DNA from: Morinoia aosen
Taxonomy: Eukaryota; Arthropoda; Malacostraca; Amphipoda; Talitridae
Direction: 5' to 3'
DNA length: 64,000 nucleotides
NCBI GenBank assembly: GCA_030386875.1
Contig: CM059569.1
Location: forward strand, 43,315,842 to 43,379,841
In this document: piece by piece, positions 9,180-63,900 of the stretch
Position numbering within the stretch: the stretch's first letter is position 1
Layout: every line of letters starts with the position of its first letter
Notes under the pieces: model-generated
Database searches by the model: none
What the model was told of the DNA's origin: nothing
Seen by the model: the letters and a program-made list of their open reading frames with translations, nothing else
Program-made: the position numbers and the translations under genes

Positions 9180-9470
9180 CTTCTAGATAATATTGTCGGG
9201 CAGGTCGGTTTCTCGTAGAACTTTATATGGTGTGCAGGTTTCTCAACGGTATTTCGATAAGGTGGTTTCTGAAAGGATTTCTTGTGATATATATTGGTTT
9301 TTCGAACTTTTTATAACGTACCGGTTTCTGCACAGTTTTTGATTAGGCGGTTTCTATTGTTAGGTCGGTTTCTCGAAGAGCTTTTTATAGTGTACTGGTT
9401 TCTCGAAGTTTTTTGATAAGGTGGTTTCTGAACTGGTTTCTAGTGATATAAACTGGTTTCTCAGCGAACT
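9180..9470 (-). repeat. Degenerate AGAAACC repeat in the 3' flank of the SLC10-like gene
   Basis: Minus-strand AGAAACC recurs every 15-40 bases and a ~165-bp block is duplicated. The first copy overlaps the stop codon TGA. Confidence 0.65.
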
Positions 9471-9625
9471 TCGTCCGACAAGTCGGCGGCGGGATTGTCG
9501 ATGCCTTGCCTTTGCGGTTTCGGATTTTGTGTGGGGTCGGTTTCGGGTTTCCGGGGAGTGTCGATACCGGCGGGAGGCTTGACGTCGATCTTCTCCACCG
9601 CGATGCCGGCCTCGGCCACGTCCAC
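9461..9625 (-). CDS. SLC10-like exon 10 (cytoplasmic tail, stop)
   Basis: 54 codons and TGA. Acceptor TCACCCAG. Hydrophilic tail rich in Pro, Asp and Lys with no recognised domain. The stop codon overlaps the start of an AGAAACCAG-type repeat that fills the 3' flank. Confidence 0.83.
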   Translation of the reverse strand: MDVAEAGIAVEKIDVKPPAGIDTPRKPETDPTQNPKPQRQGIDNPAADLSDEVR

Positions 9626-12600
9626 CTGGGTGAGAAGGTCAATTTACAGTAATAAATAAAAGAAAAACAGTAATAATACAGAACGGAAAATACAGGCTTT
9701 TTCAAATAATAAAGAAAATAAAAGCATTTCATATCCAACAATAAAAATAATAAAAGCAGTTCATTTCCAATTATAAGAAGAAACAGATTATTTGTAATTA
9801 TAAAACAAAAACGGCTTATTCGCAATAATGATGAAGGGAGAGGGGGGTGGGAGGGGGTTGTTTGGACAGAAAGAAAGATAGTCAGTTTCTAACGTTAAAG
9901 ATAATAAAAGTATTTCATTGATAATGATAAGAAAAAACAGCATATTTACGACACTAAAGAACAGAAAATTCAGGAAGAAAATATCTTAATCAGGGCTCAG
10001 TAGAAATGAGTAAAATATAGCAACTAAAGGCTGAATTAGTATGTTATCCAAACAAAATAAGGCAGAAATAGGTGAATAGGAGTAACTAACGATAAGCAGG
10101 GCTCAGCAGAAATACGTATATTAGCGTAACTGAAGATAAGTAGGGCTGAGTATAAAAATGCAAACTAGGATAACTAAGGCTAAGTATGGGCTCACCTTGC
10201 CTGACTTGCGTTTGATGACATAGAGGTAGACCAGCCGCACGACGCCCGCAGCGACGAGCGGCACCGGTGTCACCAGGAACACCGTCGCGGGCACCACTGC
10301 AACGCGCCCAGTGTATCAGGGTGTGTTGTGTACGGTGTACTGTGTGTTGTGTACTGAGTGTTGTGTGTTGTGCGGTGTGTTGTGTGTTGTGTTGTACTGT
10401 GTGTACTATGTGCTGTGTGTACTATGTGCTGTGTGTACTATGTGCTGTGTGTCGTTTGTCTATTGCACACTTTCTTCTGGTGGTACTGTGTACCCCAGAC
10501 CTGCAGTACTGTGTACACCAGACCTGCAGTACTGTGTACACCAGACCTGCAGTACTATGTACACCAGACCTGCAATACTGTGTACACCAGACCTGCAATA
10601 CTGTGTACACCAGACCTGCAATACTGTGTACACCAGACCTGCAATACTGTGTACACCAGACCTGCAGTACTGTGTACACCCGACCAGCAGTTCTGTGTAC
10701 ACCAGACCTGCAGTACTGTGTACACCAGACCTGCAGTACTGTGTACACCAGACCAGCAGTACTGTGTACACCAGACCTGCAGTATTGTGTACACCAGATC
10801 AGCAGTACTGTGTACACCAGACCTGTACTACTGTGTACACCAGTCCTGCAGTACTCTGCACACCAGACCTGCAGTACTCTGCACACCAGACCTGCAGTAC
10901 TATGTACACCAGACCTAGAGTACTGTATACACCAGACCTGCAGTACTGTGTACACCAGACCTGCAGTACTGTGCACACCAGACCTGCATTACTGTGTACA
11001 CCAGACCTGCAGTACTGTGTGCACCAGACCTGCAGTAATGTGTACGTACACCAGACCAGCAGTACTGTGTACACCAGACCAGCGGTACTGTGTGCACTAG
11101 CAGTACTGTGTGCGTTAAGGCCTGTTCACACGATCATTGAGTGCGCGCGTGAGCAGTGAAGAGAGGCGCAAGTCCCGCCCACTTGCTCTCGCTTCAGGCG
11201 CATTTACTGCTCAATGACAATGCGTACTATGCTAGTTTTCATGGCGCTGGCCAGAGCTTGTCAGTGTCATTACAGCCGCACTGTCTTTGAGCAATTAAAT
11301 GGGCCAGAAGCGATAACTAATGGGCGGGGCTTGCGCCTCTCTTCACTGCTCACGCGCGCACTCAATGATCGTGTGATCAGGTCTTTAGACTAACATGGAG
11401 GCAAAAGCAAGCACGTTATATAGGTGACATAATATCGATCATTGGCCTAAGTTGAGATCGCAGAGAAGTAACAGAGGTAATATTGATACATGCCTAAAGC
11501 TAATACAAATAAGAGTAATGGAAGTCATAATAACCGATGGGTAAGACCAAGCACAGAATACAAGTAATGGAGTAATAATAGATCACAGTAATGGTAGAGT
11601 GTTCATAACACCGACAAAGCCAAGGTAATAAACTTATCCTACACAAAACCAACACACAAGCAACACTAACCAACACACAAGCAACACTAACCAACACACA
11701 AGCAACACTAACCAACACACAAGCAACACTAACCAACACACAAGCAACACTAACCAACACACAAGCAACACTAACCAACACACAAGCAACACTAACCAAC
11801 ACACAAGCAACACTAACCAACACACAAGCAGCACTAACCAACACACAAGCAGCACTAACCAACACACAAGCAGCACTAACCAACACACAAGCAACACTAA
11901 CCAACACACAAGCAACACTAACCAACACACAAGCAACACTAACCAACACACAAGCAACACTAACCAACACACAAGCAACACTAACCAACACACAAGCAAC
12001 ACTAACCAACACACAAGCAACACTAACCAACACACAAGCAACACTAACCAACACACAAGCAACACTAACCAATACACAAGCAACACTAAACAACACACAA
12101 GCAACACTAACCAACACACAAGCAACACTAACCAACACACAAGCAACACTAACCAACACACAAGCAACACTAACCAACACACAAGCAACACTAACCAACA
12201 CACAAGTAGCACTCACCAATGGACAAAGTACTGTCGGGCGGCTGGAGCGTGACGTTGAGCATGAAGAGCGCGATGGAGTTGTTCTGCAGGCCGGTCTCTA
12301 TGCTGATGGCGACCACGTCCCCGCGGGGCTGCTTGAACACCGACGCCAGGATCAGCCCCAGCAGGTACCCGATGGTAGGCAGCGCGAAGCTCCCTCCAAT
12401 GATCTGGGTGAACATAAATGGGGATTGGAAGGGGAGTTAGGTGTTGTTGTGGGGGTTGCTATCAAGGGTAGTTTTGCGAGGTGCTAGCGTGGGGTAGTTG
12501 CTTCGATATTGCAGTGGAGGGTAGTTGTATGGGTAGTAGGGTGGCGAGGAGCTCGAAGACCGTCGCCAACACAGCTATTGTTTGTAAGAACTGCTTCTCT

Positions 12601-15600
12601 GCGCTTTCAAGTTGTTCGTGTGCACAGAAAACGCAGTGCCTTGGCAACTTACGAACTCTTCAAACCTGGTTAAGATTAACATCGAATCTCACAAAACTTC
12701 AAGCTGTTGCTTCGGACATTTGTGATGGTAAGTCGTAACACAGGCGCTTATTTTGCATTCGAGGTAAGAAGGATAATATACAGCGTATCTCAGATACCCA
12801 CTTTACACTTGAAGTAAAAAGGATAACGATAACTCGTATCTCAGATACATACTTTACACTTGAGGTAAAAAGGATAACGATAACTCGTATCTCAGATACA
12901 TACTTTACACTTGAGGTAAAAAGGATAACGATAAAGCGTATCTCAGATACCCACTTTACATCTGAGGTAGGCAGGATGAGGCGCACCACAGATACTCATC
13001 CATTTTACAACTGACGTAAGGAAGTTTACGACACACCACAGGTTTATTACATTCGAGGATGTACGGTTTACAATGGAGAAGCGCAAGCCAGACCCTCACC
13101 TTGGCATCCATAATACGAAAGACGTAGCGGTAGGCGATGCAGCCGAAAATGATGGTGTAGAGCAGCACGAAGATCATCACAGCGGACATCAACATTTTCA
13201 ATATCTTCGCCACTCTGTCAAGATAAAACAATTTCGAATATCAGTCACCTAAAGAATTTAGATTTGACTAGGAAAGTTATTTTAAGCCGTCATGGGTATA
13301 AAAATAATTTTGAATATAAATTTAGATTTGATTGTTCGAATTTAGATTGCACTGAATAACATTGAACAAATTTAGATTTAATTAGTTTGAGCCGTCACTG
13401 GTATGGAAAAAAAAGTGAATTTGAGTCATCTAACGAATTTTGAATAGATTAAGTAGGTTAATTTAAGCCTATCCTGGTATGAAAACAATTTTGAATATCA
13501 GTCACCTAACGAATTTAGATTAGATAAGTTAGCGTAAGCCTTCACTGACACTAAAAAAGCTGTCCCCAAGAGAGGAATGAACGAATTCCGTGAAAATATT
13601 TGCGTTTGAATCTTAACGCTATAATTTTTTCTCGGCCTAAAAAATAAGCGTAAAAGGCGCCAAATATTCTTATCATAGAAGGGAAAATAACTTTATTCCC
13701 GTACTCACCGCTTAGCACTTGATAGTTCGACTGAACTTCAAGCAGTTTAATGAGCACGCTTCCATGGTGGGAAAAAAGCGTGGACTAAATATACGTGGGT
13801 TGAAAACACGTACACTTCGGTATTGTTATGTCTTCCTGGGCTGCAGTGATGTTCCCCTGGGCTGCAATGATGTTCCCCTGGGCTGCAATGATGTTCACCT
13901 GGGCTACAATGATGTTCACCTGGCCTACAATGATGTTCACCTGGCCTACAATGATGTTCACCTGGCCTACAATGATGTTCACCTGGCCTACAATGATGTT
14001 CACCTGGCCTACAATGATGTTCACCTGGCCTACAATGATGTTCCTCTGGCCTAGAATGATGTTCACCTGGCCTAGAATGATGTTCACCTGGCCTACAATG
14101 ATGTTCACCTGGCCTACAATGATGTTCACCTGGGCTACAATGATGTTCACCTGGGCTGCAATGATATTCACCTGGCCTACAATGATATTCACCTGCGCTA
14201 CAATGATATTCACCTGGGCTACAATGATATTCTCCTGGCCTACAATGATATTCACCTGGCCTACAATGATATTCACCTGGCCTACAATGATATTCACCTG
14301 GCCTACAATGATATTCACCTGGCCTACAATGATATTCACCTGGCCTACAATGATATTCACCTGGCCTACAATGATATTCACCTGGCCTACAATGATATTC
14401 ACCTGGCCTACAATGATATTCACCTGGCCTACAATGATATTCACCTGGCCTACAATGATATTCCAGATATTTCTGAAAACCCGAGACATTTTCGCCACTC
14501 TGCAGTGGGAAGCTAAAATGTAGATGCTGCAAAAAAACGTCGATGCTCCCGCAAATAATAAATGATGACAAAAAATGTTGATGTTTCTGCAAAAAATGAA
14601 TAATCACAAAAAGTATTGATGCTGCAACTGACTTGGGCACAAACTTCTGGATGAGGATGCCGACAAAGCAGGGCCCGATGAGGGAGATGAGCAGCAGGGC
14701 GATGTTGGAGAAGGGTATCTCGAATTCGGCGTCCTTTGCGATCACGGGCCCCAGCAGCAGCACCCACGCCGGCAGCGCCCCTGGCGGGAGGCGCACGGGG
14801 GGCGTTATGCGGTGTCAGGTTGGCTTGTAAGCTAGTTCAAGGGCACCGGTGTTCCGAAGAGAGGAAGGTGTTAATTGGTATGGCCCCGATAAGGTGTTCC
14901 AAAGAGAGGAAGGATTAAGGTGGCACTTTGTATGCCGCCGATTAGGTGTTCCAAAGAGAGGAAGGATAAAGGTGGCGTTTGTTATGCCGCCGATTAGGTG
15001 TTCCAAATAGAGGAAGGATAAAGGTGGCGTTTGTTATGCCGCCGATTAGGCGTTCCAAAGAGAGGAAGGATAAAAGTGGCGTTTGATATGGCCCCGATAA
15101 GATGTTCCAAAGAGAGGAAGGAAGAAGATGACGTTTGCTATGGCCTTGATAAGGTGTTCCAAAGAGAGGAAGGATGAAGGTGCCTTTTGGTGAGGAGTTT
15201 AATAGCCGTTTATAGTAGGGTAGGGGACATTTCGGCCGTGAGGCGCGACACGTGTATACGAGGCTCACCACTGAGGCTCATATTTGTGTTTGTGTGTGTG
15301 TGTGTACTGTGTATACGAAGTTCCCTATTCGCTCTGATCGAATTCGTGAGGCGAGACACACGAGAGCCTCGTAACTACCGTGGCGAATAGGGAAGGGAGA
15401 GGAGCAGCGAATAGGGTGCGAGGCGAATAGGGTCTGTGTGTGTGTGTGTTTCACACACGCACACACAACACAAATATCAGCCTCAGTGGTGAGCCTCGTA
15501 TACACGTGTCGCGCCTCACCACCAAAATGTCCCTAGTGTAAACGGCCCTTTAGAAGATGGAAATTCCATGCACAAGGTGTGTTCCCGCACAAGATCTCAT

Positions 15601-18600
15601 GCGCATAGAAAAAACAAATAAGGAAGGAAGTTTATGAAGCAAGATAAAAGTTAACAGAAAGCAGTGGTAGGTGCTGGAAAACAGCACAGCAGTCAATCCA
15701 AAAAAGATGGCCCGTAGCAAAACAAAAAATCTATCCTGTTTCATCAGCTTATTTAACAAGTGTTTTTACCCAAATGGCACAGCGCTCAACGTGAACTATA
15801 ATGCACATAATCACTATTATAAAAGCAGCCGCGTCCGTCCGTCCGTCCGTCCGTCCGTCTGTGTGACCCCCTCTTGATTATGGTATCCAGAATACGCAAT
15901 CGGCTTATTTTTACAAATAGAAATTTTCTATGGAGCTTTCTCTGTTGAAATTCATCATATTGCTTTGATATTTTTAATTGACAATGAAAAAAGAAATGTT
16001 TTAAATTCGTTTGACCAGTAACCTTGCTACCACTTGGTATAAGGCCCAAGATTTTGAACTTGAGTTATTGTTTTCGAAATTGTGATTTTCTTAAAAAGCT
16101 TTGAAGAGATAATAGACGACATTTCAGAGTCCACCATGGATAGAAATAGAGCTCGTCACCATGGATTGAAATGTGTCCAACCGCAAGAGAGAAGTAGCAA
16201 GACTTCGACAGTAAGAAAAACGCCGAAGACGATCGGATGAACTACGCGAAATGGCAAGACGAAGCAATGCTGCTCGCCAACGAGATGCTAGAGCTAAATT
16301 GACCCTTGAACGGAGTTTGGAAATTCTACGGAATGATGCAGAGCATCACCGAGTAGCTAGAGAGAGCTTAACACATCAAAGAAGCGAAGAAATTCTTCAG
16401 CATAGCGCTGGACAACATCGAGTGGCACGAGAGAATTCAACTCAAGAAAGAAGGGATGAAATTCTTTAGACTAATGCCGACCAGCACGTGTGCACTAGTT
16501 ATAATAATAGTAGTAAGAATAATGAAAATAATAGTTATAGTACATATTAATCTATACTATAATAAGAGCCGCGCCCGTCTGTCTATCTATCCGTCCGAAG
16601 CCAGCCGAAAGTGTGTGAGCGTATCTGTGATACGGGCCGTGTTCAGTCTCATCAACTCTCGCGAGGTTGAATTTTTATTTTTATTTTACGGCCTTGTTTT
16701 CATTTCGCTTTCTTTCTTATTTCAAATAACGGGGGGTGGACTAGTAATAATTATAGTAATAATGGTAATGACGCACCGAAGGCGACGATGGTGGAGATGA
16801 AGGTCATGATGATGGACATGTCGAGGTTGCCCCCCAGCAGGTGGGTCCACATGTTGGACGCCCCGCCCCCCGGGGAGCAGCCCGCCAGGAAGATCCCCAG
16901 CTGGAACACCGGGTACCCGCTGAAGATCGTCTGGCTCAGCGTGAACGCCACCTGGCGGCGGGAACCAGAGTTGCATAAGGTCGTGGTAATAGTAATGTAC
17001 TCGTGGATTTTTATTATGAAAATTATTGTTAGCGACAAAGCAGAAATAAATAATTTCAAAAAGAAAATGAACTTTAATTTTAACTAATCTCATTCATTTG
17101 AACAACAAAAACCACACACGGTACTCACGATAGGCATGAACATGTACTGGCTGAAGAGGCCAACCAGCGGCCCGACGGGTTTCTTGACGATGCCTTTGAT
17201 GAGCTCGAGATCGATGGTAGCTCCGATGAAGACGTTCACGAGACCCACCAAGATACCCAGCGAAGTGGAGAAGATGTTCACGAGCTTCTGGTACGTGAGT
17301 ACCACTGACGCTTGCAGGTCCTCCTGTGCTAGTACCTGAGTGGGTAGCAGATGGTAGGTTTAATACAGTGTTGATGTGTCACAGCTGGGGTGTGTGGTGG
17401 TATGTGTGCCCGTGAACTCTGATTTTATTATTACTCCTGATTAGCAACAGTAATATATGACCGTGATGCGTAACCATGGTACGTTACCATGATACATAAC
17501 CATGACACGCAACAATGATACCTTATTGATTGATTACAATGATGTTTTAGCCTCCCTTTACCCCGACTGAAGATGTTATAAGAAAGGAAGGATGAAGGCA
17601 CCATTCAGTATGGAGTTAAGGGAACTCGGAATCTATACACAAGTTGCGTAGAAACAGTAAGCTAAGAAAGAAGTTCATGAAACAAGAAAAAAGTTGAAGA
17701 AGAAAGTAGTAGGTGCTGAAAAACAGGACAGCAGTGAACCGAAAAAAGATGGTCCTTCACATAACAAAACCTATTTTATTTCAACAAAAAGAATGCCTAC
17801 CTAGCTCTCAGCTCGAGCCCTCACAAGTTTTCCCCCTGGGAGTGCTAATTCCCATAGATACAATAGTTGTATATCCCTGAGGGGAAACAATGAAACGTAA
17901 ACGTACCCCGCAACCATAAGCTACAACCAAGACAATTAACCGTGAAAAGTAACGTACCACGCAACCATAAGCTAGACAATTAACTGTGGAAAGTTAACGT
18001 ACCACGCAACCATAAGCTAGACAATTAACTGTGGAAAGTTAACGTACCACGCGACCATAAGCTACAACGACGACAATTAACCGTGGAAAGCTAACGTACC
18101 ACGCGACCCCCAGCACAGACCTGGCCGTAGCGGTCGAGGAGGGTGACGGTGACAACAGTGGAGCCCAGGAAGTCTGCAGACACATTGAATGTGCCGCTGT
18201 ACGTCGCATTAGTGTCGTCACTCACGATCATCACCTCGGACACCTCCAGCACCGACAACACAGCCTGTGGTCATCGTAAAGAAGAGGTAATGGAATATAT
18301 ATATTGTTTGATGAATAAAGAATGTGCTATTTTGCGATACATTGGATGCTGTGATATATTGTTCTCCTCAAGGTAAAAAGAGAGACACTCAGAGGAGGCA
18401 TTGGATCTTCGAGAGAATGGAGTTTGAAAGAACTAAACAGAGAAGGTCAAAGCCAGTAATATAATTATTCACTTTATTCTAAAGACAACAAACAAACAAC
18501 AAACAACGGAATCTACGGATGCTTTATTTCCCATTTCAAGCCTGATACACATCACCTTGTACATTGGATTTTCAAATGCCTTATAACTAACGCCAGAACG

Positions 18601-20790
18601 CCATGACGCTTTCCCCCGGTCAAGACCGGTACCCATTTCAGACACCTGGGTAGAGAGGGGGGGGGGGGGTATTGTGCTTGGAATTTTCTTCTATACCCAA
18701 CAGAGAAAATCGCCACCCAGCGCCGGGACTCGAACCTTCGTTTGCCCGCACGGAGGCAGGTCCTAAAGCCACACGGCTATGACGAGCTATGCTATGGCTA
18801 TGAAGATAACAATAGAGTTGGAAAAGATTAACTTTAGGTGGGAAATATTCTCCAATTAGCACAGCCACTGGCTGTTGAAAGCGCACTGCGTGTACATGAG
18901 GGTGGTTACATTTCCGGCTAGTGTGGGGGTCCGAGACATGTCAAATACCATTCATGCAAATCACAAGACCTCGAAGAAATGTGAAGATAATATACAACGC
19001 TGTGGCAGTCTTTACGATAGATCATACTATTTCACACGTTATACGTAAAACGCTGTACAGCAGGGTATTACACGCTGTATGCATAACACACCTCTGCATG
19101 ACGTGTGTGCCCGAGACGGCGGTGCTAAGAAGACTTACTTCATCAGTGACGTTGACGCGTACGTAGTCAACCTCCTCCGCGGTGGTGGTCCACACGACAA
19201 GGTACGTCGAGCCTTCCTCCAGCAGGCGGAGGTGCGGCGGGTCGAACGTTATCTGAAAAAACAAAAAAAAGAAAAACAATTTATTTCTGACAAAGGTGAT
19301 GCGAAAAACGTCAGTAGTAAGGAGAGAAGAAAAATGGAGAAACGATTTATTTCATCTAAAGATGATGTGAAAAACGTCATGAGTGGGGCAATGAAAGAAA
19401 TAAAAAACAAATTGTTTCTCAAAAATATGATGCCAATTAACATCAAGTGTGCAGCAAGAAAATAAGAAAGACAATTTACTTCCGATAAAGATGATACAAT
19501 GAGAATCAATAAACAAATATGAGAATAACACATGCTCTGCCGCAGAATTGCTCGTCCGTTAGGCAATATACGAAGCAATGAAATAGATCCTGAGCCTATT
19601 CTGGTGTGTACTGGTTTCAGTCGGCTCATTTGAGAGTGGTTAGTGATTTAAAATAATATTGTCAACTTTAACATAGAATCCCGTGACGATGCAAAAGTCG
19701 GTCACCACTTTAGCGTGTGACTAAGGCCTATTTCACACTGAGCTAGCCAAGCAGCATCTAGCAAGCTCGCATGAACTATCTGGCAAACTGTCTGCGAGAC
19801 TGGTAGGTAGGAATAGCACTATTACGAGCCGTTGCCCTCACACTGAACTTGCACGCTTTATCCAGCATTCAGCGTGCGAGGTGACAATGCTATTCTTACC
19901 TACCAGTCTCGCAGACCATCTGCTAGATAGCTCATGCGAGCTTGCTAGATGCTGCTTTGCTAGCTCGGTGTGAAATGGGCACTAGGCTGACCATAATTGC
20001 AAACATTGTAAAAACGTTTTCATACCTTAAAAGTACATTTTTCTGGGACACGCTGTATTTTGAAATACGTCTAATGTATATCACAGTGTTTAGAGAAAAC
20101 TTTCTTAAATATCACTTGCAGTTAAGCATGGCCCACTCTAAAAGCGAAAACATGTTTAGGGACACCCTTTTCTTGGAGCACCCTTTTTAGAGGGCCCCCT
20201 TAGATTATATTAGATTATACGTTAGCTTAGGCATCCCTAATCGCTAAAAATAAGAGCGCTGCAAAGAGAGGAAGGAATCATTTAATATGGAGTTAAGAGA
20301 ACGCGGAATCAATGCAGAAAGGGCATAGAAACCTTAAGTTGAGAAAGAAGTTTATGAAACAAGATAAAAATTGAAGAAGTAGTAGGTGCTGAAAAACAGG
20401 ACAGCAGTGAGCCGAAAAAGGTGGTCTTAAACATAGCAAAAAAAATTCCTTTCAACGAAAAGAAGGCCTACCTAACTCTCAGCTCGGGCCCTCACACATT
20501 TCCCCTAAGAGCGCTAATTTCCAGAGTTACAATAGTTGTATCCCCCTGAGAGAAGAGAGCATCCTTTTTTTAGAGAGTACCCAGCACATTAAATGAGTTC
20601 ATTGCATCAGTATCAATTAAAAATCATCTTTAAGTATCACTTGGGGTACTTTAAACTGTTCAAATAACTAACTTTAAGTACTCACCAGCCCCAGAGGCGG
20701 CAGCTGGGTGGTGGTAACCTCCTGTCCAACGGAGACACCGAATGCTGTCATCAGCAGCAGGAGCTTGGCGGTTGTCCACTGGGTCGTCAT
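9461..20790 (-). CDS. SLC10-family sodium/bile-acid cotransporter-like gene, 10 coding exons
   Basis: Multi-exon membrane transporter gene assembled by eye. Exons in transcript order: 20686-20790, 19139-19252, 18100-18264, 17129-17335, 16777-16951, 14633-14780, 13100-13214, 12217-12403, 10196-10296, 9461-9625. Total 1,482 nt, 493 codons plus stop, every junction GT-AG and in frame. Residues 1-22 are a signal peptide; about 36-128 form an extracellular domain with N-glycosylation sequons (NVT, NAT, NVS); the rest is a multi-spanning SLC10 core. Seen signatures: GCSPGGGASN near 221-230, and ETGLQN near 379-384, which matches the sodium-site ETGxQN motif of bile-acid transporters. The N-terminal ectodomain and the length resemble P3 (SLC10A3)-like members more than the shorter ileal/hepatic transporters. 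The C-terminal tail (about 440-493) is hydrophilic and proline-rich. Family placement is secure; substrate is unknown. The start is the Met directly before the hydrophobic signal segment; an upstream in-frame Met would bury it. Confidence 0.9.
9962..10195 (-). repeat. ~57-bp degenerate repeat at the donor of exon 9
   Basis: TGAGCCCATACTTAGCCTTA at the donor recurs as CTCAGCCCTACTTATCTTCA and TGAGCCCTGCTTATCGTTAG further into intron 9. Confidence 0.6.
10196..10296 (-). CDS. SLC10-like exon 9 (last membrane helix)
   Basis: 101 bases; the first two bases complete a Val codon. Acceptor GTTGCAG, donor GTGAGC. Encodes a hydrophobic helix (VPATVFLVTPVPLVAAGVVR) then LVYLYVIKRKSGK, a positive-inside end. 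Confidence 0.87.
10490..11105 (+). repeat. 23-bp minisatellite in intron 8
   Basis: About 26 units of ACTGTGTACACCAGACCTGC type. Units keep frames open on both strands, so long open frames here are not genes. Confidence 0.92.
11118..11384 (+). mobile_element. Harbinger-like MITE in intron 8
   Basis: 267 bp with ~60-bp inverted arms (GTTCACACGATCATTGAGTG and its complement). Flanked by TTA at 11115-11117 and 11385-11387. The end AGGCCTGTTCACAC and a TTA duplication fit PIF/Harbinger MITEs. Confidence 0.8.
11640..12216 (-). repeat. 21-bp minisatellite that begins with the exon 8 splice donor
   Basis: About 27 units of minus-strand GGTTAGTGTTGCTTGTGTG type. The unit touching exon 8 reads GGTGAGTGCTACTTGTGTG and is the working donor. 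Confidence 0.92.
12217..12403 (-). CDS. SLC10-like exon 8 (sodium-site ETGxQN)
   Basis: 187 bases, phase 0 in, phase 1 out; acceptor TTCACCCAG, donor GTGAGT. Contains IGYLLGLILA and AISIETGLQNNSIALFML. E, Q and N of ETGxQN are the residues that coordinate sodium in bacterial and vertebrate homologues, so ion coupling may be kept. Its donor is the first unit of a 21-bp minisatellite. Confidence 0.93.
12740..12985 (+). repeat. 51-bp tandem repeat in intron 7
   Basis: Four to five units with GAGGTAAAAAGGATAACGAT and CGTATCTCAGATAC. Confidence 0.82.
13100..13214 (-). CDS. SLC10-like exon 7 (membrane segment)
   Basis: 115 bases; the first base completes a Lys codon. Acceptor TTGACAG, donor GTGAGG. 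Encodes a hydrophobic helix (VMIFVLLYTIIFGCIAYRY) between basic residues. Confidence 0.88.
13230..13525 (+). repeat. Irregular ~80-100-bp repeat in intron 6
   Basis: GAATATCAGTCACCTAACGA and GAATTTAGATT(A/T)GA recur three to four times. Confidence 0.55.
13826..14464 (+). repeat. 21-bp minisatellite in intron 6
   Basis: About 30 units of TTCACCTGGCCTACAATGAT type. Split into a left half ending ATGATG and a right half ending ATGATA, so variants spread by local duplication. Confidence 0.92.
14633..14780 (-). CDS. SLC10-like exon 6 (membrane segments)
   Basis: 148 bases, enters in phase 1 and leaves after two bases of a Lys codon. Acceptor CCGCCAG, donor GTCAGT. Encodes ALPAWVLLLG then IPFSNIALLLISLIGPCFVG, two hydrophobic helices with the family-typical GP kink. 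Confidence 0.88.
14850..15190 (+). repeat. ~51-bp tandem repeat derived from the AAAGAGAGGAAGGA family
   Basis: Six units with GTTCCAAAGAGAGGAAGGAT followed by GGTGGCGTTTG(T/A)TATG. The core is the left part of the interspersed repeat family found elsewhere in the window. Confidence 0.75.
15202..15549 (+). mobile_element. Harbinger-like MITE in intron 5
   Basis: 348 bp; inverted arms share GAGGCGCGACACGTGTATAC and GAGGCTCACCACTGAGG. Flanked by TTA at 15199-15201 and 15550-15552. The interior holds GT-rich simple sequence and the repeated motif GGCGAATAGGG. Confidence 0.78.
15550..15745 (+). mobile_element. AAAGAGAGGAAGGA-family repeat, partial (intron 5)
   Basis: Middle part of the family (GGTGCTGGAAAACAGCACAG), directly after the MITE at 15202-15549, which may have inserted into it. 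Confidence 0.6.
15811..16485 (+). mobile_element. Helitron-like remnant with Arg-rich ORF
   Basis: Starts CACTATTATAAAAGCAGCC followed by a (CGTC)n-like tract, related to the TCTATACTATAATAAGAGCC ends nearby. It holds a 72-codon Arg/Gln/Glu-rich frame (16251-16469: repeats of RRSNAARQRDARAK and HHRVARESLTHQR type). This resembles the basic N-terminal region of arthropod Helitron Rep/helicase proteins. No helicase or Rep domain is present. In intron 5 of the SLC10-like gene. Confidence 0.45.
16551..16760 (+). mobile_element. Helitron-like (non-autonomous) end, copy 1
   Basis: Begins TCTATACTATAATAAGAGCC and contains GAGCGTATCTGTGATACGGG and CATCAACTCTCGCGAGGTTG. Closely matches the reverse strand of 43136-43432. 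Its 3' end runs close to exon 5 of the SLC10-like gene. Assignment to Helitrons rests on the TC...CTATACTA start and hairpin-rich 3' end of the other copy. Confidence 0.5.
16777..16951 (-). CDS. SLC10-like exon 5 (GCSPGG signature)
   Basis: 58 codons plus one base. Acceptor CCGCCAG, donor GTGCGT. Carries GIFLAGCSPGGGASN, the strongest family signature, followed by GNLDMSIIMTFISTIVAFG. Confidence 0.93.
17129..17335 (-). CDS. SLC10-like exon 4 (first membrane segments)
   Basis: 69 codons, phase 0 to 0, acceptor CACTCAG, donor GTGAGT. Contains the first hydrophobic segment (IFSTSLGILVGLVNVFIGAT) and the family-typical KKPVGPLVGLFSQYMFMPI stretch, where SLC10 proteins carry a KxPxGPxxGxxxQ motif. 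Confidence 0.92.
17550..17890 (+). mobile_element. AAAGAGAGGAAGGA-family repeat (intron 3)
   Basis: Near full-length copy starting TTTAGCCTCCCTTTACC and ending TATCCCTGAGGGGA. Confidence 0.7.
17890..18110 (-). repeat. ~45-bp repeat containing the exon 3 donor
   Basis: Plus-strand AACGTACCACGC recurs at 17951, 17996, 18041 and 18093. The last copy is the end of exon 3 plus its donor. Confidence 0.78.
18100..18264 (-). CDS. SLC10-like exon 3 (ectodomain)
   Basis: 55 codons beginning AVLSVLEVSEVMIV, with two N-glycosylation sequons and a strand-like TVVTVTLLDRYG stretch. Acceptor ACCACAG. Donor GTACGT is preferred; an alternative GTCTGT donor 18 bases earlier would also keep frame. The donor region is repeated in the following intron. 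Confidence 0.8.
18487..18800 (-). mobile_element. tRNA-derived SINE
   Basis: On the minus strand a B-box GGTTCGAGTCC (18726-18736) follows an A-box-like TAGCCGTGTGG (18769-18779). Then comes an unrelated body and a GTTGTTTGTTTGTTG-type tail at 18487-18508. A second diverged copy lies near 32470-32660. Located in intron 2. Confidence 0.7.
19139..19252 (-). CDS. SLC10-like exon 2 (ectodomain)
   Basis: 38 codons beginning ITFDPPHLRLLEEGS, between an acceptor TTTTTTCAG and donor GTAAGT. Phase 0 at both ends. The sequence looks like the N-terminal beta-rich ectodomain of P3-like SLC10 proteins and includes the sequon NVT. Confidence 0.85.
19724..19981 (+). mobile_element. Foldback MITE family 1, copy 1 (intron 1)
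   Basis: About 258 bp, both halves largely complementary (GCATCTAGCAAGCTCGCATG and its complement near the other end). Flanked by CTA on both sides, a 3-bp duplication as in PIF/Harbinger-type elements. A second copy lies at 33750-34006 in opposite orientation. Confidence 0.8.
20250..20555 (+). mobile_element. AAAGAGAGGAAGGA-family repeat (intron 1)
   Basis: Contains GCAAAGAGAGGAAGGA, GGTGCTGAAAAACAGGACAG and CAATAGTTGTATCCCCCTGA. Confidence 0.68.
20686..20790 (-). CDS. SLC10-like exon 1 (start, signal peptide)
   Basis: 35 codons from ATG at 20790. Begins MTTQWTTAK followed by LLLLMTAFGVSVGQ, a typical n-region, hydrophobic core and small-residue cleavage region. Donor GTGAGTA at 20685, phase 0. 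An open frame runs further upstream (to about 20904), but the signal peptide favours the Met at 20790. Confidence 0.82.
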
Positions 20791-38619: not shown

Positions 38620-38662
38620 GGGGTGTGTTTGATTTGATTTTGTTATTCAATCGTTCAATTAG

Positions 38663-44299: not shown

Positions 44300-46975
44300 A
44301 CCAAGAGATGACCAAGACCAAAGAAGACCAAAAGATTGACCAAGACCAAAGAAGACCAAAAGATTGAACAAGACCAAAGAAGACCAAAAGATTGAACAAG
44401 ACCAAAGAAGACCAAAAGATTGAACCAGACCAAAGAAGACCAAAAGATTGAACCAGACCAAAGAAGACCAAAAGATTGAACAAGACCAAAGAAGACCAAA
44501 AGATTGAACCAGACCAAAGAAGACCAAAAGATTGAACAAGACCAAAGAAGACCAAAAGATTGAACAAGACCAAAGAAGACCAAAAGATTGAACAAGACCA
44601 AAGAAGACCAAAAGATTGAACAAGACCAAAGAAGACCAAAAGATTGAACAAGACCAAAGAAGACCAAAAGATTGAACAAGACCAAAGAAGACCAAAAGAT
44701 TGAACAAGACCAAAGAAGACCAAAAGATTGAACAAGACCAAAGAAGACCAAAAGATTGAACCAGACCAAAGAAGACCAAAAGATTGAACAAGACCAAAGA
44801 AGACCAAAAGATTGAACAAGACCAAAGAAGACCAAAAGATTGAACAAGACCAAAGAAGACCAAAAGATTGAACAAGACCAAAGAAGACCAAAAGATTGAA
44901 CAAGACCAAAGAAGACCAAAAGATTGACCAAGGCCAAAGAAGACCAAAAGATTGAACAAGACCAAAGAAGACCAAAAGATTGAACAAGACCAAAGAAGAC
45001 CAAAAGATTGACCAAGACCAAAGAAGACCAAAAGATTGAACAAGACCAAAGAAGACCAAAAGATTGAACAAGACCAAAGAAGACCAAAAGATTGAACAAG
45101 ACCAAAGAAGACCAAAAGATTGACCAAGACCAAAGAAGACCAAAAGATTGAACAAGACCAAAGAAGACCAAAAGATTGAACAAGACCAAAGAAGACCAAA
45201 AGATTGAACAAGACCAAAGAAGACCAAAAGATTGAACAAGACCAAAGAAGACCAAAAGATTGAACAAGACCAAAGAAGACCAAAAGATTGACCAAGACCA
45301 AAGAAGACCAAAAGATTGAACAAGACCAAAAAAGACCAAAAGATTGAACAAGACCAAAGAAGACCAAAAGATTGAACAAGACCAAAGAAGACCAAAAGAT
45401 TGAACAAGACCAAAGAAGACCAAAAGATTGAACAAGACCAAAGAAGACCAAAAGATTGAACAAGACCAAAGAAGACCAAAAGATTGAACAAGACCAAAGA
45501 AGACCAAAAGATTGACCAAGACCAAAGAAGACCAAAAGATTGAACAAGACCAAAGAAGACCAAAAGATTGAACAAGACCAAAGAAGACCAAAAGATTGAA
45601 CAAGACCAAAGAAGACCAAAAGATTGAACAAGACCAAAGAAGACCAAAAGATTGAACAAGACCAAAGAAGACCAAAAGATTGAACAAGACCAAAGAAGAC
45701 CAAAAGATTGAACAAGACCAAAGAAGACCAAAAGATTGAACAAGACCAAAGAAGACCAAAAGATTGAACAAGACCAAAGAAGACCAAAAGATTGAACAAG
45801 ACCAAAGAAGACCAAAAGATTGAACAAGACCAAAGAAGACCAAAAGATTGAACAAGACCAAAGAAGACCAAAAGATTGAACAAGACCAAAGAAGACCAAA
45901 AGATTGAACAAGACCAAAGAAGACCAAAAGATTGACCAAGACCAAAGAAGACCAAAAGATTGAACAAGACCAAAGAAGACCAAAAGATTGAACAAGACCA
46001 AAGAAGACCAAAAGATTGAACAAGACCAAAGAAGACCAAAAGATTGAACAAGACCAAAGAAGACCAAAAGATTGACCAAGACCAAAGAAGACCAAAAGAT
46101 TGAACAAGACCAAAGAAGACCAAAAGATTGAACCAGACCAAAGAAGACCAAAAGATTGAACAAGACCAAAGAAGACCAAAAGATTGAACAAGACCAAAGA
46201 AGACCAAAAGATTGACCAAGACCAAAGAAGACCAAAAGATTGAACAAGACCAAAAAAGACCAAAAGATTGAACAAGACCAAAGAAGACCAAAAGATTGAA
46301 CAAGACCAAAGAAGACCAAAAGATTGAACAAGACCAAAGAAGACCAAAAGATTGAACCAGACCAAAGAAGACCAAAAGATTGAACAAGACCAAAGAAGAC
46401 CAAAAGATTGAACAAGACCAAAGAAGACCAAAAGATTGAACAAGACCAAAGAAGACCAAAAGATTGAACAAGACCAAAGAAGACCAAAAGATTGAACAAG
46501 ACCAAAGAAGACCAAAAGATTGAACAAGACCAAAGAAGACCAAAAGATTGAACAAGACCAAAGAAGACCAAAAGATTGAACAAGACCAAAGAAGACCAAA
46601 AGATTGACCAAGACCAAAGAAGACCAAAAGATTGAACAAGACCAAAGAAGACCAAAAGATTGACCAAGACCAAAGAAGACCAAAAGATTGAACAAGACCA
46701 AAGAAGACCAAAAGATTGACCAAGACCAAAGAAGACCAAAAGATTGACCAAGACCAAAGAAGACCAAAAGATTGAACAAGACCAAAGAAGACCAAAAGAT
46801 TGAACAAGACCAAAGAAGACCAAAAGATTGAACAAGACCAAAGAAGACCAAAAGATTGAACAAGACCAAAGAAGACCAAAAGATTGAACAAGACCAAAGA
46901 AGACCAAAAGATTGAACAAGACCAAAGAAGACCAAAAGATTGAACAAGACCAAAGAAGACCAAGAGATGAACCAA
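44300..46975 (+). repeat. 28-bp minisatellite, ~95 copies
   Basis: Unit CAAGACCAAAGAAGACCAAA plus AGATTGAA. Variants are AACAAG, ACCAAG and AACCAG at the junction and rare AAAAAAG. The minus strand is stop-free in all three frames, which yields apparent proteins of 900-1,030 codons of an FWSSLVLFNLLVF type; these are artefacts. Confidence 0.95.
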
Positions 46976-57325: not shown

Positions 57326-57424
57326 CCGATGCAGCCAATCAATCAAACATGAAACAAACGAGAAAGAATGAGAAACTGTAACTTCTGAATGAAGTTGTAG
57401 TCCTGAGCGCAGAGCAGGAAGACA

Positions 57425-57793
57425 GGGAGCGTGGGAACAACAGGAAGACAGGGAGCGTGGGAACAACAGGAAGAAAGGAAGCGTGGGAACAACAGGAAGA
57501 AAGGGAGCGTGGAAACAACAGGAAGAAAGGGAGCGTGGGAACAACAGGAAGAAAGGGAGCGTGGGAACAGGAAGGAAGGGAGCGTGTGAACAACAGGAAG
57601 AAAGGGAGCGTGGGAACAACAGGTAGAAAGGGAGCGTGGGAACAGGAAGAAAGGGAGCGTGGGAACAACAGGAAGAAAGGGAGCGTGGGAACATGAAGGA
57701 AGGGAGCGTGGGAACAACAGGAAGAAAGGGAGCGTGGGAACAACAGGTAGAAAGGGAGCGTGGGAACAGGAAGGGAGCGTGGCAACAACACGC
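57425..57793 (-). repeat. 26-bp minisatellite directly after the FSLF-gene stop codon
   Basis: Plus-strand unit GGAAGAAAGGGAGCGTGGGA plus ACAACA, about 14 copies with shortened variants. It lies in the presumed 3' UTR. Confidence 0.9.
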
Positions 57794-57987
57794 TCAGAAG
57801 AGCGAGAAGGCAGAAGACACAGCAGGAGGTGCAGCAGAGTCCTCCGTGTCCCCCGGACCAAAGAGCGACAGGAAGCTGGGGGCTACCGTCCCCCCCAGAC
57901 TGAACAGCCCCCGCGACTCCGGTGCGGACTCCTCAGCGTCACCGAACAGGGAGAAGGTGCACGCCGGCGTCCCGGTGTTGGGGCGGC
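57794..57987 (-). CDS. FSLF-protein exon D (C-terminus, stop)
   Basis: 194 bases ending in TGA; acceptor TTTCGCCAG. Encodes 63 residues after the split Gly codon, with four Phe motifs (TFSLFGD, GLFSLGG, FLSLFGP, AFSLF at the very end) separated by acidic and Pro/Ala spacers. A 26-bp minisatellite starts directly after the stop codon. Confidence 0.8.
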
Positions 57988-60900
57988 CTGGCGAAATATT
58001 TCTAGTTTTTATCGAGTTTATTATCAGTTTTATACATTTTTTAAATGTTTATCTCTATCACATGCTTTGTCACTGTCTATTTTTCTCAAATGTTTTACAT
58101 ATGTATGTCTTGTTTTATCAAATGTTTATATCAATGTCTCTTGTTTTATCAAATGTTTTATATCAATGTCTCTTGTTTTATCAAATGTTTATATCAATGT
58201 CTCTTGTTTTATCAAATGTTTATATCAATGTCTCTTGTTTTATCAAATGTTTTATATCAATGTCTCTTGTTTTATCAAATGTTTTATATCAATGTCTCTT
58301 GTTTTATCAAATGTTTTATATCAATGTCTCTTGTTTTATCAAATGTTTTATATCAATGTCTCTTGTTTTATCAAATGTTTTATATCAATGTCTCTTGTTT
58401 TATCAAATGTTTTATATCAATGTCTCTTGTTTTATCAAATGTTTTATATCAATGTCTCTTGTTTTATCAAATGTTTTATATCAATGTCTCTTGTTTTATC
58501 AAATGTTTTATATCAATGTCTCTTGTTTTATCAAATGTTTTATATCAATGTCTCTTGTTTTATCAAATGCTTATATCAATGTCTCTTGTTTTATCAAATG
58601 CTTATATCAATGTCTCTTGTTTTATCAAATGTTTATATCAATGTCTCTTGTCTTATCAAATGTTTTATATCAATGTCTCTTGTTTTATCAAATGTTTTAT
58701 ATCAATGTCTCTTGTTTTATCAAATGTTTTATATCAATGTCTCTTGTTTTATCAAATGTTTTATATCAATGTCTCTTGTTTTATCAAATGTTTATATCAA
58801 TGTCTCTTGTTTTATCAAATGTTTTATAGCAATGTCTCTTGTTTTATCAAATGTTTATATCAATGTCTCTTGTTTTATCAAATGTTTTATATCAATGTCT
58901 CTTGTTTTATCAAATGCTTATATCAATGTCTCTTGTTTTTTCTAATGTTTATATCAATGTCTCTTGTTTTATCAAATGTTTATATCAATGTCTCTTGTTT
59001 TATCAAATGTTTATATCAATGTCTCTTGTTTTATCAAATGTTTATATCAATGTCTCTTGTTTTATCAAATGTTTATATCAATGTCTCTCGTTTTATCAAA
59101 TGTTTTATATCAATGTCTCTTGTTTTATCAAATGTTTATATCAATGTCTCTTGTTTTATCAAATGTTTATATCAATGTCTCTTGTTTTATCAAATGTTTA
59201 TATCAATGTCTCTTGTTTTATCAAATGCTTATATCAATGTCTCTTGTTTTATCAAATGCTTATATCAATGTCTCTTGTTTTATCAAATGTTTATATCAAT
59301 GTCTCTTGTTTTATCAAATGTTCATATCAATGTCTCTTGTTTTATCAAATGTTTTATATCAATGTCTCTTGTTTTATCAAATGTTTATATCAATGTCTCT
59401 TGTTTTATCAAATGTTTATATCAATGTCTCTTGTTTTATCAAATGTTTATATCAATGTCTCTTGTTTTATCAAATGCTTATATCAACGTCTCTTGTTTTA
59501 TCAAATGTTTATATCAATGTCTCTTGTTTTATCAAATGTTTATATCAATGGCTCTTGTTTTATCAAATGTTTTATATCAATGTCTCTTGTTTTATCAAAT
59601 GTTTATATCAATGTCTCTTGTTTTATCAAATGTTTATACCAATGTCTCTTGTTTTATCAAATGTTTATATCAATGTCTCTTGTTTTATCAAATGTTTTGT
59701 TTATGTCTCTTTCTCTTATCAAATATTTTGCCAATGTTTCTTTCTTTTTTCAAATGTTTTGTCAATGTCTCTTTCTTTTATCAAACATTTTGCCAATGTT
59801 TCTTTCTTTTTTCAAATGTTTTGTCAATGTCTCATTCTTTTATCAAATATTTTGCCAATGTTTCTTTCTTTTTTCAAATGTTTTGTCAATGTCTCATTCT
59901 TTTATCAAATATTTTGCCAACGTTTCTTTCTTTTTTCAAATGTTTTGTCAATGTCTCTTCTTTTATCAAACATTTTGCCAATGTTTCTTTCTTTTTTCAA
60001 ATGTTTTGTCAATGTCTCTTTCTTTTATCAAACATTTTGCCAATGTTTCTTTCTTTTTTCGAATGTTTTGTCAATGTCTCTTTCTTTTATCAAATATTTT
60101 GCCAATGTTTCTTTCTTTTTTCAAATGTTTTGTCAATGTCTCTTTCTTTTATCAAACATTTTGCCAATGTTTCTTTCTTTTTTCAAATGTCTTGTCAATG
60201 TCTCTTTCTTTTATCAAACATTTTGCCAATGTTTCTTTCTTTTTTCAAATGTTTTGTCAATGTCTCTTTCTTTTATCAAACATTTTGCCAATGTTTCTTT
60301 CTTTTTTCAAATGTTTTGTCAATGTCTCTTTCTTTTATCAAACATTTTGCCAATGTTTCTTTCTTTTTTCAAATGTTTTGTCAATGTCTCTTTCTTTTAT
60401 CAAACATTTTGCCAATGTTTCTTTCTTTTTTCAAATGTTTTGTCAATGTCTCTTTCTTTTATCAAACATTTTGCCAATGTTTCTTTCTTTTTTCAAATGT
60501 CTTGTCAATGTCTCTTTCTCTTATCGAATACTTTATCAATGTCTCACATGTGCACCAACAGGGAAATTGCCCATTCACGTGTCGGTATAAATGCACGACA
60601 TTTTATCTGCTTCGCGACGTTTTTTAAAAGTAAATGCAATCATATGAGGTGAAATTTTATCGCGGAATAGTATTTTTCATATTAACTAGAAAGAATTAAA
60701 ACTTATTCAAGGTGAAAAATCGATTTCCCTATTCCGCTACTTACAACCTAGCCAAACCAACCGTTAACAGCCGCAGAAACGCGGAGAACGTGTTAAAAGA
60801 AGAAGAAGAAGAAGAAGAAGAAGAAATTAATAAAAAGAGATAAGGAATAAGTAGGGTTAAGGAATGAGATGGAGTAAGAGATAATAAGAGGCAATGGACA

Positions 60901-63900
60901 TGATAATAAGACTAGGAGCAACCCACTCACCGTGCTGCTGAGGGGAGCCGAACAGGCTGAAAGGAGGCAGGCTGGCCTGAGGGGAAGCCTCCATGCGCTG
61001 GTAGAAGGAGCTGTTGAGGGCACCCCCCGCAGTGCTCCCGCCTGTAGGGGTGTAACAAGTGCAGGGGTACACTGATGTTGGTAATAAATTATGGATAAAG
61101 TGTGCAACAAGTACAGTAGTAGTACAGGAGAACTCTCATGCTGTTGGTAAAGTATGGATGGATAAAGTGCGCAACATGTACAGGAGTGCACAAATGTAGT
61201 TTACCCATGGAGAACTAGTGTAGAAGTGCATGCGTACACTTGTGTTGTTTATCAATATAGGATAAACTGTAGAGTAAGTCTAAGTAAGTGTACACTGATG
61301 TTGTTCACCAATATAGAACAAAGTGTGCAGCAAGTGCAAATGTACACTGATGTTGTTCATCAATACAGAACAAAGTGTACAGCAAGTACAAGCGTACACT
61401 GGCGTAGGTCATCAACAAAGAGCTACACACACACACAGCCGGTACATGTGCACACCAACACAGTCCATCAATAGAAAGCTAAGTGTGCGGAAAGTAAGCG
61501 AGTTTCGTAATTAGCGTGCCGTTGGGCTTTGTTCGGTCCTCAGTTATTGGCAAAACTTTCGCTCATAATTTGCGTCAGACAAAAGGCTGTGAAGCACAGG
61601 GTCACAGTCGATATCAAGAGCTACAATCATTTCTTTGATTCAAGTTCCCAGCACATTACCTAGTACTAGGTACGGGTACACTGCGGTAGTGATAGTAATA
61701 GATATTACCCAAATGTCATATGCTGACTCATTACACACACACAAGCGCAAGTCTTTGTTTCATCTACAAATGTTAGCATTTAATAAACTGATATTTAAAA
61801 AAAGTTCGCACTTTTAACACGTTGACTACGTTTTTACGGTTGGTTTGGTTAGGTTGGAAGTAGTGTAATTGAAAAGCCTTGTTTAATGTTCGATTACATT
61901 ATTGTATTTTTAATAGGCATGAAAAATACAATAATTCGATAATATTTCAACGTGTACGCTATAGTCAGTTTTAAATGAAGGTAGTGAAACAATTGAAGTG
62001 TTGTAAATTGATGTCGATAAATGAATAAGCAATTAACCTAGCGGTTAATTAACCTACCTTCACTGCATTTCCGCGGTTGCTACGCTCGGTTTGGTTAGGT
62101 TGGATGAAGCAGAATGGAAACGCTAATTTCATTGCTTGATTACGTTCTTATCCTTACTAACGAGCCGAAAAAATACAATTGCACGAACACATTTTAACTT
62201 GAACGCCATAGTCTAATTTAAATAAAGGTATTGAAATCAGTGAAATGGTAGCCATTGTTACTGGCACGTAGACGAGCAATTCACCAAGCGGTACACACAC
62301 GGGCCAAAACGTAGTCAACGCGTTAGCACGTAAATTAGACGCAAGCTCATGGCCTAACTTCGTGAACAACCAACACAGCCGCCCTCACGTCCACAACTTG
62401 CACGTGTTGGGCGAGTGGCGGGTTGAAAACACAACATTGAAATCATTGACTTCATAATCCTTTGATATGTTGCTATACTTCGTTCCTGGGTACAAAAAAG
62501 ACGCAGTAGCTCAGAATGTGGAGACTTGAAGACGGCAAGCTTGCCCCTAGCGAAAGAAATGAGAAGTAAGATAATATAGTTCATAGGGACTGTTGGACGG
62601 TGCAGCGTCTTGTTGGAAACTCCACCGCTGTTTTGGATGCGTTTGTTACCTCGCGCCAACAGTGATGACTACGACAAGTATCTTAAACTTCATGAGCAAC
62701 TAAATCACTCCTCCAAAAGAGTGCTCCCCAAAGTCACTGCCCCAAAACTCTCCCAACAAAGTGCTCCCCAAAGTCACTGCCCCAAAACTCCCCCAACAGC
62801 ATGTTCCCCAAAGTCACTCCCCCCAAAATGCCTCACCGGCAGGACTACTGCAGACGGATGTGTTGCCCCCTGCGAAGGTGAAGAGGGGGGAGAACAGGTC
62901 CCCGTCCGGAGCTCTTTGTACGCCTCTGCCGCCTGGTAAACAACAATATCTTCAACATAATGGACAATGAAAACTATAAAAAACTAAAAACTCTTTAACT
63001 AAAACTCTAAAGTCTAATTAAAAACTCTCTAACTCTACAACTCTAAATATTCTGTTTAAAGAGATCTAATCGTACATATTGATTATTTAATCTGATATAT
63101 ATAAATTATAAATTGTGTGAAACAATGTTACTTCCAGTAGAAACTATGACGAGGATAAATTCGATAAATGCTCACAGTATTTACACGAGGGACAAGCTTT
63201 ATTACTACGCTAGCAATTACAGTGCCACTACTTCGAGATCATCGTCTTCGTCCATGTCTTCGTAGCGCGGGCGGTTAAGCATCTGGTTTGAACTAGAAAG
63301 ATCCTGGTTCAATCCAAGTTCAATACCCGAGGTATTTTCCTATAACAGCAGGCCTTCTGGTCTCCGGTGGTTATAAAAAAAACGGAGAAAACGAGTAAGA
63401 GAGGAAGAGGGAAACCTCTTATACTCATAGAGCTTGCTTGCTTTCCTCTCCTTCACTTTCTTTCCTTAGATAAAGAAGCTGAAATGCCATTCGGGCATCC
63501 CAGCTACAACAATGAAGCGATCAATAAAGAGTAATGTAGTGGAAAGCAATGTAATTAGCGAAAGTGATCGTCCTAAAAAAATGAGACTAACTGTATTCTA
63601 CAGACTATGTAGACGTAGAAATTCATGCATGCATCCACAGCTTGTACTAAACTAACATAAAAACTGAATATAAGATGGCTCTATGATAACAAATGTCTGT
63701 TTCTCATAGATTAATACCGACAGCCCCTGCATAAAATAAGAAAATCAATGTTAAATTATTTGAGAAAAATCTAATGAGGTACCTTTCTCAGAAGTTGGAG
63801 TCATGACAGTCGTCTGGAAAGACCCTGCTGCAATTGAGTTAGACGACGCCAGCGACTTACTTGAGGTGGTGACGCCAGGCAATGCTTCAAACGGTGTAGG

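Follow-up and report, generated by a model that had tools for sequence, protein, structure and literature searches.

Minisatellite edges at exon borders in the amphipod Morinoia aosen: a real but mostly ordinary pattern

Introduction

Why should the tandem repeats in an intron start where the exon ends? The question is raised by a 64-kb stretch of contig CM059569.1 of the amphipod Morinoia aosen (positions 43,315,842 to 43,379,841; hereafter the window), taken from a 1.99-Gb genome in 29 contigs, in which minisatellites lie against the exons of an SLC10-like transporter gene (gene 1) and of a second gene that leaves the window (gene 2). An initial annotation had claimed that these arrays begin exactly at splice donors and stop codons, had proposed the donor as their seed, and had suggested either repeat birth at exon edges or selection that stops expansion at the coding border. 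Here we combine the arrays of the window with a genome-wide sample of exon borders. The border pattern is real but mostly ordinary, and we lean towards explaining it by ordinary minisatellites of a repeat-rich arthropod genome, with exons acting as walls; any donor-linked birth of arrays would be at most a modest extra.

Results

Array edges coincide with exon borders in a sample from across the genome

Arrays were called with Tandem Repeats Finder (TRF) at sensitive and strict settings, and these thresholds affect both the size of the donor excess and the acceptor results. An array edge was counted as near a border when it lay within -60 to +40 of it, whilst a position was counted as touched when it lay inside an array or at most 40 bp from one. 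Such an edge was found at 22 of 64 sampled donors, compared with 6.9% of 85,130 random non-coding positions (p = 1.4e-10), and at 14 of 64 with strict settings (4.1% at random, p = 3e-7). Sampled acceptors also exceeded random positions (7 of 38 versus 7.1%, p = 0.016; strict 6 of 38 versus 4.2%, p = 0.005), and a boundary rule special to donors and stops is not supported by these counts. Left array edges with a score of at least 60, counted in 100-bp bins from -60, numbered 12, 1, 1 and 2 in donor sample 1 and 10, 1, 1 and 3 in sample 2, against an expectation of 2.4 per bin derived from 115.7 kb of non-coding DNA.

Donors led acceptors in every comparison of the sampled and pooled sets, without reaching significance when pooled: Fisher's test gave p = 0.11 for the sample (strict p = 0.61), and pooling sample and window gave 28 of 75 donors versus 14 of 50 acceptors (p = 0.34; strict 19 of 75 versus 7 of 50, p = 0.18). 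Of the two contrasts implied by the initial annotation, that with random positions held for array edges at the sampled donors, whilst that with acceptors fell short of significance, and a donor bias is possible.

The picture changes when arrays are assumed to be cut at exons, so that a border is compared with the chance that any position is touched. In the sampled non-coding DNA, arrays take up about a fifth of the sequence, and in the introns of genes 1 and 2 about half; 21.5% of the 85,130 random positions were touched (17.2% with strict settings). Against this wall null the sampled acceptors were unremarkable (7 of 38, p = 0.74; strict 6 of 38, p = 0.65), and overall arrays meet exon borders about as often as they meet any non-coding position. 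Arrays that meet borders at the background rate then have their edges lined up at those borders.

The sample was drawn from exons located by protein homology (135 kinase and 126 kinesin exon hits, a subset of which was retrieved) and comprises 64 donors (32 + 32) and 38 acceptors from these two protein families, hand-curated from frame, homology and signal with the help of conserved kinase and kinesin motifs. Forty-one of the 58 loci L005-L062 were used, the other 17 (L006, L008, L009, L011, L013, L014, L016, L020, L023-L027, L029, L031, L033 and L040) being omitted as duplicates, as intronless kinases or for want of a clear donor. Donor windows contributed 32 of the 40 loci L063-L102 (L063, L064, L073, L080, L087, L089, L091 and L096 were excluded) and acceptor windows seven of ten (excluding L109, L112 and L113). 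Exons with no clear donor were left out, for example L036, L053 and the first exon of L056, which probably has a GC donor. Donors were picked before array distances were computed, with the exceptions of L005-L012, where arrays were already visible, and L035, where the array was seen while its donor was being read. Recounting on both strands left the sampled donors unchanged (22 and 14 of 64) and raised the sampled acceptors from 6 to 7 of 38.

Several features of these loci deserve mention in their own right. Many kinase and kinesin exon hits occur as near-identical pairs whose members lie 0.3-4 Mb from each other on the same contig (C2, C4, C5, C9, C15 and others), and kinesin-like copies are clustered on C9 near 51.3-51.6 Mb; the pairs and the cluster would represent segmental duplication or unpurged haplotypes. 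The L056 exon, presumably casein-kinase-2-like to judge by its consensus, probably ends in a GC-AG intron at about 2710-2725 in minus orientation (DYQ|ASF read-through). L018 and L034, both on contig C27, hold kinase open reading frames (ORFs) with no visible introns whose translations look bacterial-like by eye.

Arrays at the donors and stop codons of the window

All the minisatellites that the initial annotation had placed near exon ends were recovered by TRF. Those at the donors of introns 8, 9 and B and at both stop codons have an edge within about 4 bp of the border, so that the claim of closeness stands whilst 'exactly' is too strong. Splice sites in the window were read by eye and then checked for GT/AG, and are predicted from the sequence alone; all the window features described in this section lie on the minus strand.

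The clearest case is intron 8, where a 21-bp x 27 minisatellite (11641..12219) has the donor TTG|GTGAGT (+1 = 12216) in its first unit, as had been stated, and enters the last 3 (TRF) to 10 (wraparound alignment) exon bases. The 40-bp x 3 array at the exon B donor (62699..62836, +1 = 62836) extends to -4/+1, with a strict TRF edge at +8, and the degenerate 44-bp x 3 array at the intron 9 donor (10062..10194, +1 = 10195) to +1/+2; alignment and a local-copy search found no clear exon part in the units of either. In intron 3 there are two candidate in-frame donors, CAG|GTCTGT (18120) and GTG|GTACGT (18099), for the 45-bp x 4 array (17925..18120; TRF array 17925-18108). The second donor does lie within a repeat unit, but from the first the TRF edge is at +12, and at +1 only by lenient alignment. 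The repeat at the exon 6 donor is present as a degenerate 38-bp array (14515..14627, +1 = 14632) but is weak, with 2.4-2.9 copies and an edge at +5 to +11. The sixth donor with an array edge, that of exon 5, was seen with sensitive settings; its 21-bp array is weak and lies within the end of the exon.

At the gene 1 stop codon (9461-9463) a degenerate array of about 30 bp x 8 (8.2 copies; 9207..9462) begins at -2, flanking the stop at once as claimed but with a TRF period of about 30 bp rather than 57. The 26-bp x 14 array after the gene 2 stop codon (57412..57790; stop 57794-57796) begins at +3 when called with a 75-bp period and at +25 in the 26-bp call. An exon-side homology at this stop was considered and set aside: the alignment runs for 34 bases, yet certain exon ends from elsewhere align just as well when substituted for it. 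Beyond the window, an array crossed the stop in one of 20 kinase ORF ends (L015, PAK-like by eye, from -27 to +526), many of the others being intronless ORFs or ends with unconfirmed stops. The last exon of L015 has abutting arrays on both sides, a 40-bp x 38 array up to the acceptor and a second from 27 bp before the stop.

Acceptors of the window and the two null models

With sensitive settings and both strands, window donors had an array edge nearby in 6 of 11 cases and window acceptors in 7 of 12; strict settings gave 5 of 11 and 1 of 12 respectively (p = 0.07). TRF is strand-dependent, the minus strand alone putting the intron 3 array at +56 and lowering the donor count to 4 of 11. Two points had been absent from the initial annotation. 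Five of the 11 donors have no such array even with sensitive settings, and the arrays at the seven acceptors, with edges 8-39 bp upstream, mostly score low. Among these acceptor-side cases are a 31-bp x 78 array of 2.4 kb (58108-60545), counted here with sensitive settings only, whose degenerate end (57997..60545 in all) comes as close as 6-39 bp to the acceptor of the final gene 2 exon; 16-bp and 23-bp arrays (10311..11125) that stop 12-24 bp before the exon 9 acceptor; and a degenerate 66-bp array (19264..19495), again counted with sensitive settings only, ending 10-11 bp upstream of the exon 2 acceptor. All are on the minus strand.

When arrays were placed at random within their own introns as rigid blocks (20,000 runs), 8 of 13 donor and stop borders had an edge within 12 bp compared with 1.0 expected, a result matched in 0 runs, whilst acceptors gave 2 of 11 versus 0.87 expected (strict 0 of 11). 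This permutation presumes that arrays are never cut by exons, and it demonstrates edge alignment rather than extra arrays. Under the wall null, with 59% of intronic positions in the window touched by an array (45% strict), donors were not above the intronic background (6 of 11, p = 0.74; strict 5 of 11, p = 0.61) and acceptors were at it with sensitive settings (7 of 12 versus 59%). Within genes 1 and 2 the surprise therefore lies mainly in edges being aligned with exon borders, and only edges align there because the exons are nearly free of arrays.

Edge anatomy and the donor as seed

Donor-side edges scatter from -56 to +36, on the scale of one unit, with 4 of 26 within 3 bp of the border. 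Three of the seven sampled acceptor arrays (L015, L017 and L107) enter the exon and the others stop upstream. In sample 1, array cover after donors was 0.15 at 0-10 bp and about 0.2 at 80-320 bp, and upstream of acceptors it was 0.06 at 0-10 bp and about 0.2 at 40-160 bp, the baseline being 0.18.

In some arrays the unit straddles the border and carries the exon end, together with the donor, into the intron. A copy including at least 8 exon bases and the donor was found in the intron at 8 of 64 sampled donors (L051, L010, the second donor of L058, L055, L030, L050, L102 and L066). The underlying local-copy search gave 1 of 11 window donors (intron 8), 2 of 31 sampled acceptors (L015 and L017, whose units likewise span the border) and none of 12 window acceptors. 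In L102, 56 exon bases are part of the copied unit; in L030, where there are 24 copies, the number is 14 to 21. Splice signals are carried along, although not in every unit: L010 repeats AGG|GTTAGT, the L058 unit has a donor score of 7.8, and the L102 unit reads CTCAAGGTGA. In the 38-bp x 24 array of L030 (1816-2737, minus orientation) every copy resembles a mini-exon, since the unit contains the exon end along with a donor-like site and a CAG that looks like an acceptor.

The idea of the donor as seed fared poorly by comparison. Nine of 64 donors had a local tandem copy of the donor-centred 40-mer (score at least 24), a rate close to the 15% seen for 2,040 random non-coding 40-mers. Decoy donors away from exons and outside arrays were array starts in 13 of 131 cases compared with 6.8% of random positions, a further 54 decoys inside arrays having been left out of this count, and the donor motif as such was rejected as a seed. 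Comparison of the units with the donor sequence added little: the best donor score in arrays at donors was -0.60 on the sense strand, -3.33 on the antisense strand and -1.02 after shuffling, and 3 of 22 donor-array units scored at least 3, versus 10% of shuffles. Low-complexity intron starts were also rejected as a cause, since array-less introns have a G+T content of 0.56-0.57 near the donor and their composition is not special. Reading of the unit lists also speaks against a single inserted element as the source, each intron having units of its own sequence and period.

Copy number changes while the edge stays in one set of paralogs

The near-identical paralogous kinesin introns L078, L103 and L104 share a 25-bp array with a common donor-side edge at about +24 and hold 9.2, at least 13.5 and 11.2 copies respectively. 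In this one set, of the abutting type, copy number changed within the array with the edge fixed, at least over the short time of paralog divergence.

Host genes and neighbouring features

Gene 1 (9461..19252, minus strand), predicted by translation and splice-site check, has exons at 9461-9625, 10196-10296, 12217-12403, 13100-13214, 14633-14780, 16777-16951, 17129-17335, 18121-18264 and 19139-19252, the search for 5' exons having ended at 19252; its product matches Pfam SBF (E = 4.6e-31). The 3' part of gene 2 (57794..64000, minus strand), read from open frames and splice sites, has exons at 57794-57987, 60931-61041, 62837-62932 and 63783-64000, and a Pfam search with its product gave no match. 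In gene 1, TRF arrays with a period of at least 6 occupy 31% of the sequence with strict and 42% with sensitive settings, and in gene 2 they occupy 43% and 53% respectively. The genome as a whole has 115 matches to PF00379, the arthropod cuticle family, as fits an arthropod. Upstream of gene 2, locus L002 (3-1028 and 1308-2021) holds long open frames of amino-acid tandem repeats, such as ADQEAPALP, that are possibly gene 2 coding exons with in-frame minisatellites. Between the two genes lies a non-long terminal repeat element of the long interspersed nuclear element type (34894-41281, minus strand), with a main ORF of 1250 amino acids encoding endonuclease, reverse transcriptase and RNase H and an upstream ORF of 872 amino acids with no Pfam match. 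An intergenic 28-bp x 96 array of 2.7 kb (44297-46972) leaves three minus-strand frames open for more than 900 codons.

Discussion

Exons as probable walls

Selection that stops arrays at the coding border, the second of the two causes suggested initially, fits the data best, with array edges coinciding with exon edges far above random. A tandem duplication across a donor or a stop codon would leave the first copy intact for the mRNA and might be tolerated, whilst duplications that change exon sequence or the polypyrimidine and branch region would be removed. Tolerated donor-crossing duplications would in turn make the donor look like a seed. Edges could come to sit at the wall because duplications absorb flanking sequence until they reach the exon, or because the birth rate at exon edges is somewhat raised.

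Several observations weigh against walls as the whole explanation. With sensitive settings sampled donors exceed the wall null (22 versus 13.8 expected, p = 0.012), and a modest excess of arrays at donors is possible, although with strict settings it shrinks to 14 versus 11.0 (p = 0.20). Array cover 20-80 bp after donors in sample 1 is about twice baseline, at 0.33-0.37 versus 0.18. The sense strand of donor arrays has a G+T content of 0.67, compared with 0.56 in other arrays (p = 0.002) and 0.56 in array-less introns. In the window, strict settings show acceptors touched less often than intronic positions (1 of 12 versus 45%, p = 0.008) and donors not (5 of 11), an asymmetry that puts slightly less weight on walls. 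Together the donor excess, this asymmetry and the G+T richness would allow for a process specific to donors.

Walls alone are challenged chiefly by the pile-up itself. For 64 donors about 4.8 edges would be expected in the interval -60 to +40 compared with the 22 found, and uniform births with fixed edges and walls should not pile up in this way. In a crude simulation of uniform births, with invented rates and therefore indicative only, pile-up reached at most 1.5-fold, and only with no deletions at about 85% coverage; once deletions were included there was none, and a deletion shadow of the exon was accordingly rejected. The lack of pile-up in the simulation argues for edge movement or for border-linked birth.

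Exon-intron junctions as possible birth sites

Exon-intron junctions, or transcribed 5' splice sites, could instead be sites of minisatellite birth, duplication starting there more often than elsewhere, perhaps because transcription leads to breakage or forks stall at the exon-intron step, and the array then growing into the intron. We regard this as a tentative alternative. The excess of edges at 22 of 64 independent donors (p of about 1e-10, and 3e-7 with strict settings) speaks for it, as do the spread of edges to either side of the junction over about one unit length and the edge bins beyond +40, which are near or below expectation, partly since donor arrays already fill the space. It is also consistent with the stable edge and changing copy number of the kinesin paralogs, with the G+T-rich sense strand and with unit donor scores that are higher in sense than in antisense. 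The presence of arrays at donors is, however, just 1.3-1.6 times background, acceptors are not clearly different in either the sampled or the pooled comparison, and strong donor-like sites that lie away from exons seldom mark the start of an array. A stronger joint version, in which junctions are true hotspots where crossing duplications are several times commoner, growth is one-way into the intron, about a third of donors are marked, and donor arrays sit at and partly consist of the gene's own border, appears a little less probable still.

Splicing and chance

It is improbable, in our estimation, that donor arrays were retained as helpful or harmless to splicing, with G/U-rich units acting as intronic enhancers or spare donors and other arrays being lost. 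The higher G+T content of donor arrays, the extra donor-like sites in units of L010, L058, L102 and L035, the precedent of human IFI6 discussed below and the roughly 3-fold enrichment of G-quadruplex motifs near mammalian splice junctions (excerpts of PMC9065059) agree with such a role, but unit donor scores barely exceed those of shuffled units and neither acceptors nor stops are explained. Chance and annotation, that is two genes in a repeat-rich stretch with borders picked by eye, would fit window introns that are about half array, where contacts are expected, as well as sites read from sequence with an ambiguous intron 3 donor, but has very little likelihood as an explanation given that the edge alignment recurs at 64 homology-chosen donors in two samples, also with strict TRF.

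Significance

With edges at about a third of sampled arthropod donors, the question of where minisatellites are born and where they stop becomes answerable with annotated chromosome-scale genomes. If the donor excess is true, mutation would be tied to gene structure and there would be a steady supply of duplicated splice sites, which have been proposed as raw material for intron gain (excerpts of PMC3087553). A full-text literature search covering titles and abstract openings, with subscription papers outside its reach, found no genome-wide account of the edge alignment, which says little about novelty. The words splice, exon-intron and border were absent from the main text of a Daphnia tandem-repeat survey in a term search. 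The precedents found, as far as the excerpts extend, concern single lancelet genes and sets of human paralogs.

Comparison with known systems

Against the initial view that no established mechanism of this kind is known, boundary-spanning minisatellites are on record as lancelet mirages, and in humans IFI6 and certain paralogs carry minisatellites at a donor or an exon-intron boundary. Introners or transposon-derived introns, in which many introns share one element family that ends at the splice sites, appear an unlikely parallel, since on reading of the unit lists the arrays described here have units that vary in sequence and period between introns.

In human paralogs within segmental duplications, internal tandem repeats occur at exon-intron boundaries (excerpts of PMC2812944). 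The likeness lies in units of about 30 bp at such boundaries and in minisatellite expansion, whilst the link to new introns and alternative transcripts is, in those excerpts, a feature of the human system. The minisatellite of human IFI6 (G1P3) provides multiple splice donors (Turri 1995, as cited in PMC4526556, seen in excerpt) and likewise sits at a donor; its repeat units are used as alternative donors, whereas the arrays here are known from DNA.

The closest parallel is with the mirage minisatellites of lancelets, found in Adh3, TnC, the globins BflGb6 and BflGb9, and PGBD5, whose units contain the exon-intron boundary. Excerpts of the two papers (PMC3087553, PMC3902484) describe them at 5' and 3' boundaries, with units of 10-160 bp and unstable copy number, in genes that are otherwise normal and normally spliced. 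In Morinoia aosen, too, some units span the boundary, at least 8 exon bases and the donor being copied locally at 8 of 64 sampled donors (in the window the unit spans it only at intron 8, by 3-10 bases); copies carry splice signals, although, as in lancelets, not in all units; and array edges occur at both kinds of boundary (22 of 64 donors, 7 of 38 acceptors; L015, L017 and L107 enter the exon). The differences are that the host here is an arthropod and that most cases abut the border rather than span it. Judged by their sequence, the border-spanning arrays described here are mirage-type minisatellites, in an arthropod.

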